Origin: a virus
Direction: 5' to 3' (one strand)
Length of the DNA stretch: 47,069 nucleotides
IMG/VR virus record: IMGVR_UViG_3300038551_000023
Location: 1 to 47,069 of that record
The notes under the pieces were generated by a model. The model saw only the letters and a program-made list of their open reading frames with translations. It was not told the DNA's origin and did no database searches. This document shows, piece after piece, positions 205 to 43,048 of the stretch (position 1 is its first letter; every line of letters starts with the position of its first letter). A program made the position numbers and the translations under genes.

Positions 205-1494
205 GTGGCGCTCCTTTTCGATACGTACTTCCAGTACGTTGAAAAAACTGAACCTCCACTGATTTACCATCGGTGGAGTTTAGCTGCGTGCGTTGGAGCT
301 GCGCTGGGCCGCCAATTCTTTCTCCCCTTTGGGCCATGGAAAATTTTCCCTAACATCTATGTGATGTTAATAGGGAATCCCGGCACTAGAAAGAATACAT
401 CAATTAATCTTGCAACTGAAATTTTAGAAGCTAGCGGCTATGCTCATTTCAGTGCCAATAAAACAAGACTAGAAAAGTTTCTAATAGATTTAGAAGGTGC
501 AACTCCTGATGAATCTGATGCCGACCGCTCCGCTAAACGCAACAGCACGAACATTGTATTTAAAAATCTCTTCAACGAGGATGAAGAAGATTGTACTGGC
601 TTAGAACCTAGAGAAGTATTTATTTGTGCTCCAGAATTTAACACATTCATGCCACGAGGCGATATAGATTTCATTGCTATTCTTGGTGACCTCTGGGACT
701 GGAACAATGACAAGCGTAGATGGAAACATCGCCTCAAGAACTCTAAGCAAGTTCACATATACCAGCCAACGATTTCTCTATTAGCAGGAAACACTCATGC
801 CGGATTTCAAGATATGTTTCCTCCCCAAGCCATTGGTCAAGGATTTCTATCACGAATTATTCTTGTTTATGCGGAACCGAGCGGCAAAAAGATCTCGTTT
901 CCTGAAACCCCGTCTGCGTCCACGAAACAAAACCTTATCAGGACTTTTACGGATATCAAGCAAAAGGTTGTCGGCGCAGCATCAATTGCGCCAGACGCAA
1001 AAAACGGTTTGGATATTATCTATCGAACGTGGCATGAAATTGACGATCAAAGATTCAAGCATTACAGTACACGAAGATTTACACATCTTCTTAAACTCAC
1101 GCTTATTTGTGCTGCATCGCGTGTCAGCACTAAGATTGAAATGTCAGATGTACTCTTGGCTTCCAGTTTGCTTTCTTTCACAGAAGCCGATATGCCAAAG
1201 GCTCTTGGAGAATTTGGAAAAAGTAGGAATGCTGAAGCTGCTAACAAAATTATGCAGAAACTCTATGAGGCTAGACGCCCGCTTACGCTCATAGATTTAT
1301 GGAAAGTAGTTAGTAGTGATCTTGAAAAGATGAAAGACTTAGGAGAACTTCTAGCAAATCTTCAACAAGCTGATAAGATTCAAGCAGTGGCAGGAAAGGG
1401 ATTTTTGCCTAAGCAAAAACCTCTTGATAGAAAAATGTTGTACGTTGATTATAACATATTAAAGGAGTACACAAGTGGAATCACAGGCCGGTGA
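205..1494 (+). CDS. P-loop replication protein, DUF3987-like
   Basis: This 429-residue protein begins with a GTG 6 bases after the polymerase stop. Residues 20-60 (YHRWSLAACVGAALGR, then a PNIYVMLIGNPG strand) resemble the start of DUF3987-type phage and plasmid proteins, which are primase/helicase-associated NTPases. The nucleotide-binding loop at residues 57-66 reads GNPGTRKNTS. The Walker Lys is present, but the preceding Gly is Arg and the residue after Lys is Asn followed by Thr, so the loop is non-canonical. Its place between the polymerase and a MazG-like gene supports a replication role, perhaps helicase or primase-helicase. There is no TOPRIM or zinc-binding primase region, so priming activity is not shown. 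Its last 20 bases overlap the next gene. Confidence 0.6.
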   Translation: MALLFDTYFQYVEKTEPPLIYHRWSLAACVGAALGRQFFLPFGPWKIFPNIYVMLIGNPGTRKNTSINLATEILEASGYAHFSANKTRLEKFLIDLEGATPDESDADRSAKRNSTNIVFKNLFNEDEEDCTGLEPREVFICAPEFNTFMPRGDIDFIAILGDLWDWNNDKRRWKHRLKNSKQVHIYQPTISLLAGNTHAGFQDMFPPQAIGQGFLSRIILVYAEPSGKKISFPETPSASTKQNLIRTFTDIKQKVVGAASIAPDAKNGLDIIYRTWHEIDDQRFKHYSTRRFTHLLKLTLICAASRVSTKIEMSDVLLASSLLSFTEADMPKALGEFGKSRNAEAANKIMQKLYEARRPLTLIDLWKVVSSDLEKMKDLGELLANLQQADKIQAVAGKGFLPKQKPLDRKMLYVDYNILKEYTSGITGR

Positions 1495-31904: not shown

Positions 31905-32069
31905 ATGCCCGGAATGAGAGAGCAACTGAAACAAGCGAAAGACATTTACGAACTGGAAAAAATCTGGCACGAAGTGATGTTCAGAGCACGCACCGGAACA
32001 CTTAGTATTAAGGCGCAAAGACGGTGCAAGAAAGTTTGGGAAGAGAAAAGCAGAGGGTTCCAGAAATGA
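31905..32069 (+). CDS. Small charged protein, first gene of the rightward arm
   Basis: This is 54 residues from ATG 31905, with GAAGGGA about 7 bases upstream; a start 33 bases earlier lacks a ribosome site. It is helical and strongly basic at the end (RRCKKVWEEKSRGFQK). It overlaps the next gene by ATGA. Being the first early gene, it might act on the host, but nothing is recognised. Confidence 0.65.
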   Translation: MPGMREQLKQAKDIYELEKIWHEVMFRARTGTLSIKAQRRCKKVWEEKSRGFQK

Positions 32070-33094
32070 GCACTGAACCTCTAGCCTTGGACAAATTCCA
32101 TATGCCGCTAGTTTGCGTGCGTAGTGGATTATTCCTCGGCAAATTCTACCCCAGCGTAGGACTTGCAAGCACAACTCCCTACGTCCAAGCATGGAAAGAA
32201 ACAACTTTCCTACATCCAATCTTCAGTCTCTCACTAAGTGCTCTGCTTCATCGCGCCACAGCTTGCTGGCAGCTTGAGAAAAGTGGAACCAAGCAGTTTC
32301 CAATGCAGCACAAACAACTGCTTTTCCTCGCAATGCTGCACGCAAGCAACTGCATCAAACAAGATGTTGCAGGCTTGCCAAGTCCAAAGATCGTAGAAGT
32401 ACACTTCACACGAGTGATTGAATTACTTGGGTGGAAAAACGATCAAGCTAGTGAACGTTTACAGTTTCCGCGTCTGCACATTTGGAAAGGTGCAGTAAAG
32501 GAAGATGCGGAAAATCTGTTCAGGAATGTTCCTGCATGGATAAGTGCCTGCGAAAGTGTCCGCGATGAATGGGAAAACGTAGTTAGAGAGAGCCAGAAAA
32601 AAGCTAAGGCGCAGGCTACCGCGCTAGCAATGCGGAACATTCGGCGCGCCATGTATCAAGATATCTCCCTGCGGCGCCTTTGGAATTGGATTAGCACACA
32701 GGTTCCGCAATCTGTCTTAGAAAACAACAGCGACCTGCAACAGCTTTTCTTTGCAGAAGAATCACAGATCAATGTCTGGACTGAGGAAGATATCACAGCT
32801 CTTGAAGATCTGGTGATTCAATACTGCGAACTAGGTAATTCCATCAGCCATGAAGTAATGCGTAGAATTAAAGAGCTGATGGGCTGGTGGCAGATCTACT
32901 ACGATACATTCGAAATTGTCGTGGACACCGAGAAATTCAGCGGCTACAAAGGCGCCCCGGAACCGAAACTTGCAGACTTCACAACGAAAGCTGCATATCT
33001 CGTTGAGCTGGCGCGCTGGAAACTTGGAAACATGGAGCAGAAAGCAGCGTCCACAACGGCCAAGGGCAGCAAGATTACTGCGGAGGATCTGTAA
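32066..33094 (+). CDS. Unknown 342-residue protein with ITAEDL tail
   Basis: The start ATG 32066 lies in an ATGA overlap with the previous stop. The protein is mostly helical, with a basic Ala-rich stretch near residue 180 (ESQKKAKAQATALAMRNI) and a Trp/Tyr-rich segment (IKELMGWWQIYYDTF) near 275. The final residues KGSKITAEDL form a charged tail ending in a motif shared with two other proteins of this arm. It is located just before the helicase-protease gene, so a replication role is plausible. No family is recognised. Confidence 0.65.
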   Translation: MSTEPLALDKFHMPLVCVRSGLFLGKFYPSVGLASTTPYVQAWKETTFLHPIFSLSLSALLHRATACWQLEKSGTKQFPMQHKQLLFLAMLHASNCIKQDVAGLPSPKIVEVHFTRVIELLGWKNDQASERLQFPRLHIWKGAVKEDAENLFRNVPAWISACESVRDEWENVVRESQKKAKAQATALAMRNIRRAMYQDISLRRLWNWISTQVPQSVLENNSDLQQLFFAEESQINVWTEEDITALEDLVIQYCELGNSISHEVMRRIKELMGWWQIYYDTFEIVVDTEKFSGYKGAPEPKLADFTTKAAYLVELARWKLGNMEQKAASTTAKGSKITAEDL

Positions 33095-33226
33095 ATGAAG
33101 TGGATACGAGACACTGATGGCGATCTTGGATTGTCTTTTTGGAACATTGTAGTGTTTATCAAGTACAAACACTCAGTGATTGTAGAATTCTTCAAAGATT
33201 ATCCACAAGCTGAGAAGTGGACTTAG
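33095..33226 (+). CDS. Tiny protein between replication genes
   Basis: This is 43 residues (MKWIRDTDGDLGLSFWNIVV...EKWT). GGAGG at 33082-33086 lies 8 bases before ATG 33095, and the gene starts directly after the previous stop, so translation is likely. The middle is hydrophobic and beta-like (FWNIVVFIKY) between acidic and Lys-rich ends. The stop TAG overlaps the AGGAGG of the next gene. Function is unknown. Confidence 0.55.
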   Translation: MKWIRDTDGDLGLSFWNIVVFIKYKHSVIVEFFKDYPQAEKWT

Positions 33227-33234
33227 GAGGAAAG

Positions 33235-35559
33235 GTGAGCCTTGACAAGAATCGTTTGCTAGAGCTGATCGCTGAAGCAAAAAAGCGAGAAGCAGAACGT
33301 AAACAACAGGCAGCGAATCCTGCTCCTGTCCCTACGCACCATCACAAAACTGCGGAAGAAATTGTTGCTGCCGCAGTTACGGCTGCCGATCCTAATGCAT
33401 TCGAATGGAATGAGGAACAGCAACGCGCCATTGATCTAGCAGTTACGCGGAAAAGTTTCTGCTTGATCGGCGCGGCTGGCACTGGCAAGACAACTACTGA
33501 GCGCGAGATTGTTCGCCGCCTCATTGCAGAGAATGTAGCAGTGCCTCTTTCTATGAGCACAAAATACCTGAAGCATGGTGTTCCGGGTATCGTGCTTACT
33601 TCCTTTACTCGCCGTGCAGTGCGGAATATGCGGAAGGTAGTTAGTGAGGAAATGAAAGAGCATTGCATTACTCTACACAAACTTCTGGAATACGAACCTG
33701 TATACTACGAAGTTTGGGATAATGAAACGCAGAAGTACAAAAACACAATGCGTTTCGAGCCAATGCGCAACAAAGAGTGCAGGCTTCCCAATGAGCTAAC
33801 TACCGTAATCATTGACGAAAGCTCAATGGTAAGCACTGACTTGTTCCAGAAACTTCTAGAAGCACTGGCATCTGTGCAGAATACGCAATTCATCTTTGTC
33901 GGTGATTTGCACCAGCTCCCGCCAGTGTACGGCCAAGCAATCCTTGGTTTCAAACTTCTGGACTTGCCTACGATTGAACTCACAAAGATTTATCGGCAAG
34001 CACAGAAATCTCCCATCATCACTCTCGCGCATAAAATCAAGAATGGTGAAGATATCCACCAAAGTTCCGAGAATGTGAAAATAGCGACTGAACAGGGCAC
34101 TGTAACTATCAGACCGTGGAAGAAGCCTCTTAGCGACTTTGATGCTACGCTAACAGCAAGTGCCTTCCTCAAGAAACTAGTAGCTGAGGGCGACTACAAT
34201 GAAGAGGAAGATATTATTCTCTGTCCGCAAGAGAAAACCAAGAATCTCGCCTTCGGAACTAACGAGTTTAATAGAATTATTGCACAAGCTCTTGGTGACA
34301 AGAGAGATGCAGATGTTTACGAAGTTATTGCTGGATACGAAAAGCACTATCTCGCAGTCGGAGATAGATTGCTCGTTGGAAGGGAAGATGCTGTTGTTAC
34401 GGCTATCGTTAAAAATTCCAAATACTGGGGAAAGCGGCCTAAGCAGCATTCTCCAAATTTGGATAGATGGGGAAGCTACAAAGCCAAAGTAGAGGCCGAT
34501 AGCGATGATGCCGATTTTGACGTTGATAAGTATCTTGAGAACTTCAGTCTTGAAGGCCAAGATAAAGACGACGACAGAAAGCAGGAAGCTAGCCATGTAG
34601 TTACGGTGGAGCTGCTTGATTCTGGTGCTACAGAGAATCTCACAACTGCTGGAGAAATCAATGCAACGCAATTTGCCTACGCCCTCACTGTGCATAAGTC
34701 GCAAGGCAGTGAATGGAACAGAGTCTTTTTCCTTACTCATCAATCCCATGTCATTATGTGGAACAGAGAACTTCTTTACACTGCTGTTACTCGTGCTAGA
34801 CAAGAACTCTACATTATCTGTGAACCTGACAGACCGGGACGTAGAGGAACTCTTTGGAAAGCTGCAAAATCTCCTAGGATCAAAGGGGATACACTTGCGG
34901 AGAAAGCAGAATTCTTCAAAGGCAAGCAAGAAGAGTACCAAAACAAATACAAACAAGACTTCAGCGATGCAGACAGCGGGCGGAGAATCTACAAAGAAAC
35001 TCCCAAAGAGTCTGCCCCAACCCCTACAATTCCCCCGGCGCCGCCAGTACATCTAGTTAAGATGCATGAGTTTGTTTCTGAGGCATTCAAAAAGAAAGCT
35101 TCAGAATCTCTCCGCACATTCTGGAACAAAGCACTGGCAATCTGGGGCTTTGGAAAGATTGGGCCACTCCCTACGATAGATTACAATTTGCAGCGGCATT
35201 CTGTCGTAGGGCTGGCGCGCCTGCAACTCCAACAGATTGCACTAAATCCAGTTTGGTGCATCATGGCAGAGAAAGATCCTGCGGTTGCTCATGAAATGCT
35301 CCATGAAACTATTGGGCATGAAGTTGCCCATCTAGTAGCATGGAATTACAGCAAAGATCGCGGCCATGATTCTGGATGGATCATGACTATGAAGCTGCTT
35401 GGGTTGACTCCTGATGTATTCCTGAATGACAAAGATCTTCCTAACTGGGCAAAGCAGTACAAAGAACTAATGCAAAAAACGCTGGAAGAATTGAAGGCAA
35501 CAAAGAACGCAGATACTTCTGAAGATTCCACTGGATTTAACTCCTACGACGAGGTGTGA
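33235..35559 (+). CDS. RecD/Dda-like helicase fused to SprT-like metalloprotease
   Basis: This is 774 residues from GTG 33235, which has AGGAGG 4 bases upstream; a GTG at 33217 lacks a site. Residues 60-560 are an SF1B helicase: Walker A GAAGTGKTT (79-87), Walker B IIDES (D194, E195), motif III FVGDLHQLPPV, motif IV IYRQ, motif V ALTVHKSQGSEW, motif VI YTAVTRARQELYII. An acidic insert (about 415-455) precedes motif V. After a Lys/Pro linker (550-615), the last 150 residues are SprT-like: HETIGHEVAHLVAW with zinc ligands His695, His699 and His711 (RGHDSGW) and catalytic Glu696, then MKLLGLTP. SprT/Spartan proteases cut proteins crosslinked to DNA. A 5'-3' helicase carrying one could clear roadblocks from the phage genome. 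Both halves look intact. Confidence 0.87.
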   Translation: MSLDKNRLLELIAEAKKREAERKQQAANPAPVPTHHHKTAEEIVAAAVTAADPNAFEWNEEQQRAIDLAVTRKSFCLIGAAGTGKTTTEREIVRRLIAENVAVPLSMSTKYLKHGVPGIVLTSFTRRAVRNMRKVVSEEMKEHCITLHKLLEYEPVYYEVWDNETQKYKNTMRFEPMRNKECRLPNELTTVIIDESSMVSTDLFQKLLEALASVQNTQFIFVGDLHQLPPVYGQAILGFKLLDLPTIELTKIYRQAQKSPIITLAHKIKNGEDIHQSSENVKIATEQGTVTIRPWKKPLSDFDATLTASAFLKKLVAEGDYNEEEDIILCPQEKTKNLAFGTNEFNRIIAQALGDKRDADVYEVIAGYEKHYLAVGDRLLVGREDAVVTAIVKNSKYWGKRPKQHSPNLDRWGSYKAKVEADSDDADFDVDKYLENFSLEGQDKDDDRKQEASHVVTVELLDSGATENLTTAGEINATQFAYALTVHKSQGSEWNRVFFLTHQSHVIMWNRELLYTAVTRARQELYIICEPDRPGRRGTLWKAAKSPRIKGDTLAEKAEFFKGKQEEYQNKYKQDFSDADSGRRIYKETPKESAPTPTIPPAPPVHLVKMHEFVSEAFKKKASESLRTFWNKALAIWGFGKIGPLPTIDYNLQRHSVVGLARLQLQQIALNPVWCIMAEKDPAVAHEMLHETIGHEVAHLVAWNYSKDRGHDSGWIMTMKLLGLTPDVFLNDKDLPNWAKQYKELMQKTLEELKATKNADTSEDSTGFNSYDEV

Positions 35560-39074: not shown

Positions 39075-39248
39075 ATGGACACCGGCGATAAAATTGTGCT
39101 TGCCATACTGATTGGCATCCTTTCAGTAGCTTTTCTACTTGTCATAGGTACTTATATTTTCAACGAACAGACGTATCGTTGTTATGAAATTTTCCAGTAT
39201 CGTTCGGCTGCTGAGTTGCATTTGCTCTGCAACAGTTCTACTAACTAG
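39075..39248 (+). CDS. Small membrane protein overlapping a lipoprotein gene
   Basis: This is 57 residues from ATG 39075, 2 bases after the previous stop. A strong membrane span is at residues 7-29 (IVLAILIGILSVAFLLVIGT), followed by a 28-residue tail. Its last 65 bases overlap the lipoprotein gene in another frame. This embedded membrane-protein/lipoprotein layout recalls i-spanin/o-spanin pairs, but the periplasmic part is very short for a spanin. Confidence 0.55.
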   Translation: MDTGDKIVLAILIGILSVAFLLVIGTYIFNEQTYRCYEIFQYRSAAELHLLCNSSTN

Positions 39249-39492
39249 CTGCGCGCAATCTGACGTAGTTAAAATCCGTTGGCTGCGTGTAGCAGACCCA
39301 CACAAATTCTGTGCTGCAATGGCTACGAAATCTTATGGCAATCAAAAGATTCTTGGCTGCCAATTCATTGCAGACGATGGCATCTGTACCATAGTAGCTA
39401 AAGATTTTGCTACTGAAACAAACTACAGAGAAATGTATGTTCTTGGTCATGAAGTCAAGCACTGTTTTGATGGTAAATGGCACCCTGAATAG
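39184..39492 (+). CDS. Lipoprotein with zinc-protease-like HExxH motif
   Basis: This is 102 residues. The signal sequence is basic then hydrophobic, with lipobox LLTSC (Cys23), so the mature protein is likely anchored in the outer or inner membrane facing the periplasm. The C terminus reads VLGHEVKHCFDGKWHPE: His89, Glu90, His93 and His100 have the spacing of a small metalloprotease site. Four further Cys could form disulfides. It could act as a periplasmic protease, a superinfection-exclusion lipoprotein, or an outer partner of the overlapping membrane protein at lysis. Which of these holds is unknown. Confidence 0.65.
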   Translation: MKFSSIVRLLSCICSATVLLTSCAQSDVVKIRWLRVADPHKFCAAMATKSYGNQKILGCQFIADDGICTIVAKDFATETNYREMYVLGHEVKHCFDGKWHPE

Positions 39493-40835: not shown

Positions 40836-41906
40836 ATGGCTCTAAATGCTGACGACTTTCTGTCGCTATCACTAGATTCGTCTGCTCCCGAAGCGGAGAT
40901 AGGGACTATTGGTTCCGCTCCTAGCTTTGCGGCTATCCAAGCTCACAAAACATCAAAGAAAAACTATCGTGATGCTTATATCTACATCAACGTAACTTCA
41001 CACAGTCAGATTGAAGTTCTTCAAGACTGTGCTCGGAAGTTTCAGATCTCCAAATCTCCTGCGCACCAAACATCTGAAGGAATCTTCAATATAGATTTCG
41101 TGTTTGGTCATGCCGTGGGCGCAGGAGTCCAAGCATACCTAGCTACTAACTCCCCCACACAAGCACAGCTCGCCTCAATGCTTGCGTGGAACATAGATCT
41201 AGACGCAGAATTTCCAAAGAAAGGTAAAAGTTCTCCGCTCGCAACTTTAGCAGTGGAGAAGTTCATTCAATTTTGGAAAGCTACTTACGAAGATGAGTGG
41301 GAAATTGCACTACTCAATGGTAAACCAGCAACCGAGTTAACATTCTGGATTGATTTTGAGAATGGCTATTTCCATGCTGGGCACATTGATGTAGTCCTGC
41401 GCCACAGAGTTACACACAAGCTCATGGTGGTAGAGATTAAGACTACTGCCATCCGTAGTATTGACGAAGCACAGTACGGTAATTCTGAACAAGCTCTTGG
41501 ATATTCCTTAGTTGTAGATCGTATCGCAGAGTCTACAGAGATTGCACAGAACTATAATGTAGTTTACTTTGTATACTCTAGTACTAACCGTGAATGGCAA
41601 GCTATGCCTTTCATTAAAAATCGTACACAAAGACTTGAATGGCTCCAAGCGCGGCTACTTAACCACGCGAATATTGGAACATTCAGAAAGATTTCTTTTT
41701 TCCCAAAAAACGGGTCTGCTTGCTGGTCATTTAGTTCTCGCTGTCCGCACTATGGTTTGTGCGACATGAAATCTATGCAACGTACAGATTTCCGTGTATT
41801 CGATTCCACAAAAGATCCAATGCCAGAAGCAATGGACTTTACTTTCAAACTTTCTGAACTTGCAACAGCGGTGCTGCGTGAACCAGAGATCTCCAAGAGT
41901 ATTTGA
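40836..41906 (+). CDS. RecB/Cas4-like PD-(D/E)xK nuclease, likely iron-sulfur
   Basis: This is 356 residues. Motif I is SHSQIEVLQDCARKF (Cys65) and FGHAVGAGVQ (His92). The catalytic core is GHIDVVL (Asp185) and VVEIKTT (Glu200, Lys202), followed by EQALGYSLVV (motif with Gln). C-terminal cysteines 306, 313 and 319 (ACWSFSSRCPHYGLC) together with Cys65 have the Cas4/AddB pattern of a 4Fe-4S cluster. Such enzymes resect DNA 5' or 3' ends. Next to a Sak4-like ATPase and an SSB-like gene, it fits an exonuclease plus annealing-protein recombination module. The start NADDFLSL echoes the ADDL tails upstream. Confidence 0.8.
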   Translation: MALNADDFLSLSLDSSAPEAEIGTIGSAPSFAAIQAHKTSKKNYRDAYIYINVTSHSQIEVLQDCARKFQISKSPAHQTSEGIFNIDFVFGHAVGAGVQAYLATNSPTQAQLASMLAWNIDLDAEFPKKGKSSPLATLAVEKFIQFWKATYEDEWEIALLNGKPATELTFWIDFENGYFHAGHIDVVLRHRVTHKLMVVEIKTTAIRSIDEAQYGNSEQALGYSLVVDRIAESTEIAQNYNVVYFVYSSTNREWQAMPFIKNRTQRLEWLQARLLNHANIGTFRKISFFPKNGSACWSFSSRCPHYGLCDMKSMQRTDFRVFDSTKDPMPEAMDFTFKLSELATAVLREPEISKSI

Positions 41907-41955: not shown

Positions 41956-42150
41956 ATGTGTAAGATGTGTGAACAAAAATATAATCCACCAATACTCATT
42001 AAAGGTACACACATTTTAGAATGTATTGGCCCCGCAGAAAATCAATCTGTGCCATGCTGGAAATGCACAGAAACTATTCGCTCTAACGAGACAGTAGAAA
42101 AAGGTACTTTCAAAAATTTAAGGAGAAAGAGTGCTTCTCACAGACTATGA
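41956..42150 (+). CDS. Small zinc-ribbon-like protein
   Basis: This is 64 residues from ATG 41956. CKMC at the N terminus and CWKC in the middle (PCWKCTETIRSN) form a two-CxxC zinc-ribbon pattern; a further Cys lies at IECIG-like position 24. The end is basic (RRKSASHRL). The ribosome site (CCGGAG, 11 bases away) is weak. It overlaps the Sak4-like gene by 20 bases. Confidence 0.45.
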   Translation: MCKMCEQKYNPPILIKGTHILECIGPAENQSVPCWKCTETIRSNETVEKGTFKNLRRKSASHRL

Positions 42151-43048
42151 ACAGAAAAAGTCCCACAAGATTTGTGTATTCGGGCGCGCCAAGGTAGGGA
42201 AAACAGCTTTGGTTGCGCAACTTGCGCGCATCGGCAAACTCTGGTGGTTTGATCTTGAAGATGGAATTAAAACTGCTCTCAATGAATCTATCCTCCCTAA
42301 AGAGTACTGGAAGAACATTGAAGTAATCAGAATTCCATCGCTTCAAGCTGTCCCTATGGGGATAGAAACTCTACTGAAAGTTATCAAAGGCGATGACTGC
42401 AAAATTTGTTGGACACATGGCAAGGTCAGTTGTCCAGTTTGCGGCAAAGATCCTACTGCATATCATACTAATATTTGTCTGCGCAATTTTACTAGTAACG
42501 ATTGGCTCGTGATTGATTCAATCACCCAGCTAAGCGCAGACGCAAATGCCGCAGTTCTCAAATTCATCTTCGGCACTGCCGACACTCCAGAAAAATTCAT
42601 ACTGGATAAAGATACTGGAGGCAAAGATTTCAAATATCCAATGGCTGTGTCTTTTATGCTTGATCGTATCTTTTCCACTATTCAAGCTGGCAACTTCAAT
42701 TGTGCTGTTATCTCTCACGAAGTAATGACTGAGCGCACAAAAGATACAGGACATATGCCGGGAAAAGGAGAGAATCAGCCTAGCGATAATGTAGAAATGA
42801 TCTTTCCTGCGGCGGGGAGTAGAAACTTTAGCCGCAATTTCGGTAAATATTTCGATATGCTGATTCATGTAGATATCGTGAATCGCAAGCATCGTGCATT
42901 TTCTTCCACACTCTATCATCCTACCATCCAAACTGGCAGCAGACTTCCTTTTAACATTGAAGATATGAAAGATGAAAAAGGAAATACACTGACGCCGGGG
43001 GATGCACTAGTAGCAATGTTCAAACCACAGATTAAGGAAACCAAATAA
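42131..43048 (+). CDS. Sak4-like RecA-type ATPase (single-strand annealing/recombinase)
   Basis: This is 305 residues from GTG 42131, preceded by AAGGAGA. The P-loop GRAKVGKT (18-25) is followed by WWFDLEDGIKTAL. Walker B is WLVIDS (Asp129). A zinc-ribbon-like insert, Cys90/93 and Cys101/104 (CKIC...CPVC), lies between them, which is not usual for the family. Sak4 (AAA_24) proteins are phage RecA-like annealing factors that work with an SSB. Here an SSB-like gene lies 450 bases downstream and a nuclease upstream, the expected set for homologous recombination. Confidence 0.8.
   Translation: MLLTDYEQKKSHKICVFGRAKVGKTALVAQLARIGKLWWFDLEDGIKTALNESILPKEYWKNIEVIRIPSLQAVPMGIETLLKVIKGDDCKICWTHGKVSCPVCGKDPTAYHTNICLRNFTSNDWLVIDSITQLSADANAAVLKFIFGTADTPEKFILDKDTGGKDFKYPMAVSFMLDRIFSTIQAGNFNCAVISHEVMTERTKDTGHMPGKGENQPSDNVEMIFPAAGSRNFSRNFGKYFDMLIHVDIVNRKHRAFSSTLYHPTIQTGSRLPFNIEDMKDEKGNTLTPGDALVAMFKPQIKETK

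Follow-up and report, generated by a model that had tools for sequence, protein, structure and literature searches.

Can one phage polypeptide both travel along DNA and digest the proteins stuck to it? The question is raised by a gene in the window, the whole 47,069-base stretch of DNA analyzed here, which is a podovirus-like phage record and a single uncultivated contig. The gene (33235-35559, plus strand, stop included) encodes 774 amino acids from a GTG start, and the original prediction held that these form a helicase fused to a SprT/Spartan-type protease. We find that the helicase-SprT join is a real and recurrent design, not the oddity of a single sequence.

Architecture of the fusion protein

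The helicase and the C-terminal SprT-like domain both lie inside one uninterrupted frame, and the single-chain arrangement is borne out by that open frame, by family models, by structure prediction and by relatives. An alternative in-frame GTG lies upstream at 33217. We favor the start at 33235 because an AGGAGG Shine-Dalgarno-like site (33225-33230, plus strand) sits four bases ahead of it, and on account of the N-termini of two relatives, L002 and L003.

Approximately residues 58-560 (33406-34914, plus strand) constitute an SF1B helicase part of the RecD2/Dda type. This part matches AAA_19 (5e-25), AAA_30 (2e-23) and UvrD_C_2 (7e-17) in Pfam and the Dda-like phrog_325 (1e-67) in PHROGs. For the full-length chain, AlphaFold with 42 sequences gives a model of mean pLDDT 83.5, which Foldseek matches to the PDB entries for RecD2 (3gpl, E 1e-22) and T4 Dda (3upu, E 5e-18). 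Motifs I, Ia, II, III, V and VI follow one another in order on a RecA-like double domain, confirming that the SF1B set is complete. On the plus strand, motif I (Walker A) reads GAAGTGKT (residues 79-86, 33469-33492), motif II (Walker B) IIDESS (192-197, 33808-33825), motif III GDLHQLPPV (223-231, 33901-33927) and motif V TVHKSQGSEW (485-494, 34687-34716); the motif VI region, LYTAVTRARQELYI (514-527, 34774-34815), includes LYTAVTRAR at residues 514-522.

This motor had also been taken for a replicative helicase, a view that we revise. Because the same phage carries a separate primase/helicase-like gene (205-1494, plus strand; DUF3987, phrog_14296), itself a candidate replicative helicase, the fusion helicase is best called accessory; it is probably of the accessory RecD2/Dda type rather than the replicative one, and would move 5'-3'. 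Head, portal, terminase and tail-like genes occupy the minus strand of the window and early genes the plus strand, and the terminase is closest to those of Aeromonas phage P5 and the 119X/PaMx group (34-38%). Neighbors of the fusion gene are a PD-(D/E)XK exonuclease-like gene (40836-41906), which belongs to its early module, and a Sak4-like recombination ATPase (42131-43048). All three lie on the plus strand, which we count in favor of the mechanism preferred below. Upstream of the helicase, a protein of ~350 amino acids (32024-33094, plus strand) is conserved in L002 and L003 and matches nothing in Pfam or PHROGs. Small ORFs in the window (39184-39492, plus strand), L003 (12494-12811) and L002 (13200-13532) carry HExxH and a further histidine at their very C-terminus (GHEVKHCFDGKWHPE in the window, WHEEMHCKGWTH in L003) and may represent a second small metalloprotease-like gene or a lipoprotein gene.

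A flexible linker rich in proline, alanine and lysine (residues 578-604, 34966-35046, plus strand; pLDDT < 50) precedes the SprT-like metalloprotease domain (residues 610-757, 35062-35505, plus strand), which is delineated by PF10263, structural models and Foldseek. The SprT identity of the C-terminal part holds: at 29.2 bits (E 8.6e-7) it passes the curated Pfam cut-off of 25.6 bits, with relatives scoring up to 53 bits, and AlphaFold models it confidently. Modeled alone from ten sequences, residues 606-774 reach a mean pLDDT of 89 and a pTM of 0.87, and the SprT-domain models adopt a zincin-type fold whose PDB matches are weak by E-value. Among viral structures, Foldseek ranks SprT proteins of phages first (prob 1.0, best E 7e-5). 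Matches in the PDB are weaker (prob 0.99 to 0.38, E 0.07-1) and comprise SPRTN, Wss1 and the archaeal selecase/abylysin, with selecase/abylysin at prob 0.99 and the SPRTN entry 6mdx at prob 0.72 and E 0.29. Sequence searches of the PDB found no solved SprT relative.

Upon inspection of the putative active site, we find the zinc-binding and catalytic motif HEVAH at H695-H699 (35317-35331, plus strand), with E696 as the predicted catalytic residue and H711 (35365-35367, plus strand) as the predicted third zinc ligand, all correctly numbered from the outset. All ten fused proteins keep the HExxH and the downstream histidine unchanged, although identity in the SprT domain falls as low as 23%. The label "SprT/Spartan-type" survives for the SprT core but not for the zinc ribbon of SPRTN. 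The cysteine-based zinc-binding domain that follows the protease core of SPRTN is absent, the sole cysteine of the SprT part (C675) lying before HExxH, and this part has neither a SPRTN-like zinc ribbon nor a basic DNA-binding region. The C-terminal domain is a putative minimal SprT protease without SPRTN's DNA-binding zinc ribbon; it may function like SPRTN, and we do not class it as a SPRTN member. Because the domain lacks the ribbon, targeting of the protease to DNA would have to come from the helicase. We rejected an internal start that would yield a free SprT protein, as no methionine is conserved at the linker.

Distribution and descent

Uncultivated phage contigs in IMG/VR hold ten non-identical fused proteins, namely those of the window, L002 (72%), L014, L015, L114, L016, L124, L056, L059 and L091. 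The nine besides the window lie on independent contigs, each with the same domain order in one frame, and more than 80 further helicase relatives in IMG/VR lack the HExxH extension. A survey of fused versus split arrangements, suggested with the original prediction, turned up fused, lost and separate states. Among the matches listed from 50,697 annotated phage records, helicase matches end before SprT and SprT domains are separate genes. No fusion was found in a plasmid search, nor in bacterial genomes by scans with the SprT part and the whole protein, which used strict patterns of limited sensitivity. Three same-family helicases, L051 (2303-4480), L082 (3532-5808) and L070 (6087-8327), carry other C-terminal additions, most of them of low complexity, at the corresponding position, and these differing extensions suggest that extra segments may be acquired preferentially at this end of the helicase.

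The Fredfastierviridae and their kin (119X gp54, PaP2 p54, Tiera_046, Aeromonas P5 and EBPR podovirus 3) have Dda-like helicases 35-40% identical to the window's and genomes of similar size, and none of the four such helicases compared at full length has a fused SprT domain. Many phages carry stand-alone SprT genes. Those of VAP7, KVP40, Aeromonas 65 and Citrobacter Ci1 belong to the same protease family, but are separate genes with no helicase in the chain. In Vibrio phage VAP7 (L126, 1183-2445) a short ORF with the annotation "helicase c2" directly follows the SprT gene, which is also near a DNA repair exonuclease gene, another possible SprT-helicase association. The stand-alone SprT-like genes of L005 (1937-2356) and L021 (4788-5312), which form a distinct lineage with a YKPRNA.AGI end, have an unfused member of this helicase family within a few kb. 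We considered the stand-alone SprT-like genes of Tiera and L021 as split counterparts of the fusion and rejected them, since they belong to a distant lineage on the SprT tree.

When the helicase part is analyzed by itself, a maximum-likelihood tree of 48 rows unites the window, L002, L003, L014, L015 and L114 with support of 100/100, whereas L016+L124 and L056+L059 are placed elsewhere amid unfused proteins and L091 stands alone. A single clade of all fused rows is rejected by the AU test (p ~1e-109, a difference of 239 log units), which speaks against a single origin by vertical descent, and even a clade of L016, L124, L056 and L059 is disfavored (p 0.013). For SprT the picture differs: the domains of the window clade are sister to those of L016+L124 (99/98), whereas the corresponding helicases are not sisters, which points to an exchange of the domain or gene end between lineages. 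The SprT domains of L056/L059 and L091 belong to other SprT lineages with weak placement, so that by these trees the SprT domains of the fused proteins fall into at least two lineages. Because the helicases with a fused protease are not monophyletic and their SprT domains do not form one lineage, the fusion probably arose or moved repeatedly. Repeated gain is likelier than loss in many lineages, although counting cannot separate the two. The recurrence of the fusion in a single domain order strongly suggests that the two parts are linked in function.

One loss can be followed in detail. L003, the sister of fused L002 (100/100), has a helicase that ends in NAESK-stop; immediately downstream, in another frame, the sequence still encodes NDYQSNSYDEV-stop, which matches the fused C-terminus (DDYQSNSFDEV-stop in L002) and is homologous to the C-terminal tail of the window's protein (35506-35556, plus strand). 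A deletion of ~540 bp has removed the entire protease, and the 49-kb L003 record holds no other PF10263 match. The sisterhood with L002 and the scar of the old C-terminus imply that the fused form is ancestral in the window clade and that the protease can be lost; they also rule out a split ancestor for L003. Because L003 and most relatives lack the protease, and no other SprT gene was found in the L003 record, the fused protease is not essential in general. Where it is retained, dN/dS in the SprT part is 0.08 for L056/L059, and 0.13 for L002/window and 0.29 for L016/L124, the latter two being rougher, dS-saturated estimates from distant pairs; in the helicase part it is 0.09-0.11. By these ratios the SprT part is under purifying selection, less strict in distant pairs than that on the motor. 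The fusion is thus old and selected, yet dispensable in some phages.

Proposed roadblock clearance and competing readings

What would a helicase do with a protease of its own? Our preferred answer, which we hold to be somewhat better than an even bet, is that the protein is a phage accessory RecD2/Dda-type helicase whose SprT protease would clear proteins stuck on DNA. The motor would load close to a stalled fork, on single-stranded DNA, run 5'-3' into a protein covalently or tightly bound to DNA, and strain or unfold it. The SprT domain, on its flexible linker and without a zinc ribbon of its own, would then cut the exposed polypeptide and so allow replication or recombination to proceed. The direction of movement, proteolysis, its DNA dependence and its substrate are what we infer for this protein from its parts and their known counterparts.

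Those counterparts make clearance the best explanation, because the fusion joins a helicase motor and a SprT-type protease, the two kinds of part at work there, in one chain, in which the helicase could replace the zinc-binding domain. T4 Dda and Deinococcus RecD2 share the helicase fold and motifs with the fusion protein, and neither, to our knowledge, has a protease domain. FANCJ is an SF2 iron-sulfur helicase, and FANCJ and SPRTN are two separate eukaryotic proteins, whereas the window encodes an SF1B helicase in one chain with its protease. Dda moves 5'-3' and pushes bound streptavidin off DNA (PMC4191417), and UvsX and Dda rescue stalled forks (PMC3016281). FANCJ loads on single-stranded DNA, moves into a crosslinked protein and unfolds it, enabling cleavage by SPRTN (PMC12279946); the fusion pairs the same types of part. 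SPRTN/Spartan and yeast Wss1 have the SprT-type HExxH...H core in common with the fusion, whose predicted fold weakly overlaps 6mdx/6mdw and 5xbv. By contrast, the fusion lacks their zinc-binding domain, basic region and PCNA or ubiquitin motifs, is attached to a helicase and is encoded by a phage. By analogy, "self-contained roadblock clearing" is plausible. Against it count the dispensability of the fused protease, the missing SPRTN-like DNA-binding parts, the poor resemblance to solved SPRTN (weak in structure, nil in sequence) and the many phages in which SprT stays a separate gene. We advance more tentatively, at slightly under even chances, the narrower proposal of a single-chain, motor-driven DNA-protein-crosslink protease in which the helicase would unfold the adduct for the SprT domain, a counterpart of FANCJ plus SPRTN that would have originated repeatedly, through capture and swapping of domains.

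The main rival to the crosslink reading, to which we give perhaps one chance in a handful or a little better, is that the protease is aimed at non-covalently bound host or defense proteins on phage DNA (nucleoid proteins, RNA polymerase, restriction or other defense nucleases) and that the helicase only brings it there. The patchy presence of the domain and its loss in L003 fit such an accessory or host-dependent role, and for SprT-like proteins of jumbo phages, cleavage of host proteins has been put forward on the strength of their limited distribution (PMC7824862). ArdC, a single-stranded DNA-binding protein with a metalloprotease domain, offers a precedent, as it is reported to overcome restriction (PMC7213743). 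Yet the recurrent joining to one type of helicase argues for a task tied to movement along DNA, and SPRTN is reported to show little sequence preference when it cuts crosslinked proteins (PMC7826251).

It is improbable that the SprT domain acts on its own protein, releasing or switching off the helicase by self-cleavage. The long disordered linker between the domains would permit it, and autocatalytic inactivation of SPRTN is known (PMC7826251); however, a domain kept merely for its own removal is hard to reconcile with repeated gain, and L003 lacks the domain with its helicase intact. A catalytically dead domain whose one function is to bind DNA or protein, as the missing zinc ribbon and the lack of a sequence match to a solved SprT protein might suggest, is a shade more improbable still, given H, E, H and the third H in 10/10 fused proteins and the purifying selection. 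An artifact, be it a chance HExxH at the helicase end or an assembly chimera in the window's one uncultivated contig, has virtually no probability left and is refuted by the nine independent contigs and the PF10263 scores of up to 53 bits.

Significance of a fused motor and protease

The claim that this fusion had not been described agrees with our literature search, which covered few subscription journals and preprints and found no such paper. Both parts belong to known families, and it is their combination that we did not find in the literature searched. Human SPRTN can cut a model DNA-protein crosslink in vitro only after a helicase has unfolded it, and there the two are separate, heavily regulated proteins. 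If clearance of DNA-bound proteins is indeed the task of the fusion, a phage enzyme of ~770 residues would provide a minimal system for the coupling of translocation to proteolysis. It would also suggest that proteolysis of roadblocks matters for phage replication, and would give a likely role to the stand-alone SprT genes of phages, which are common but unexplained.
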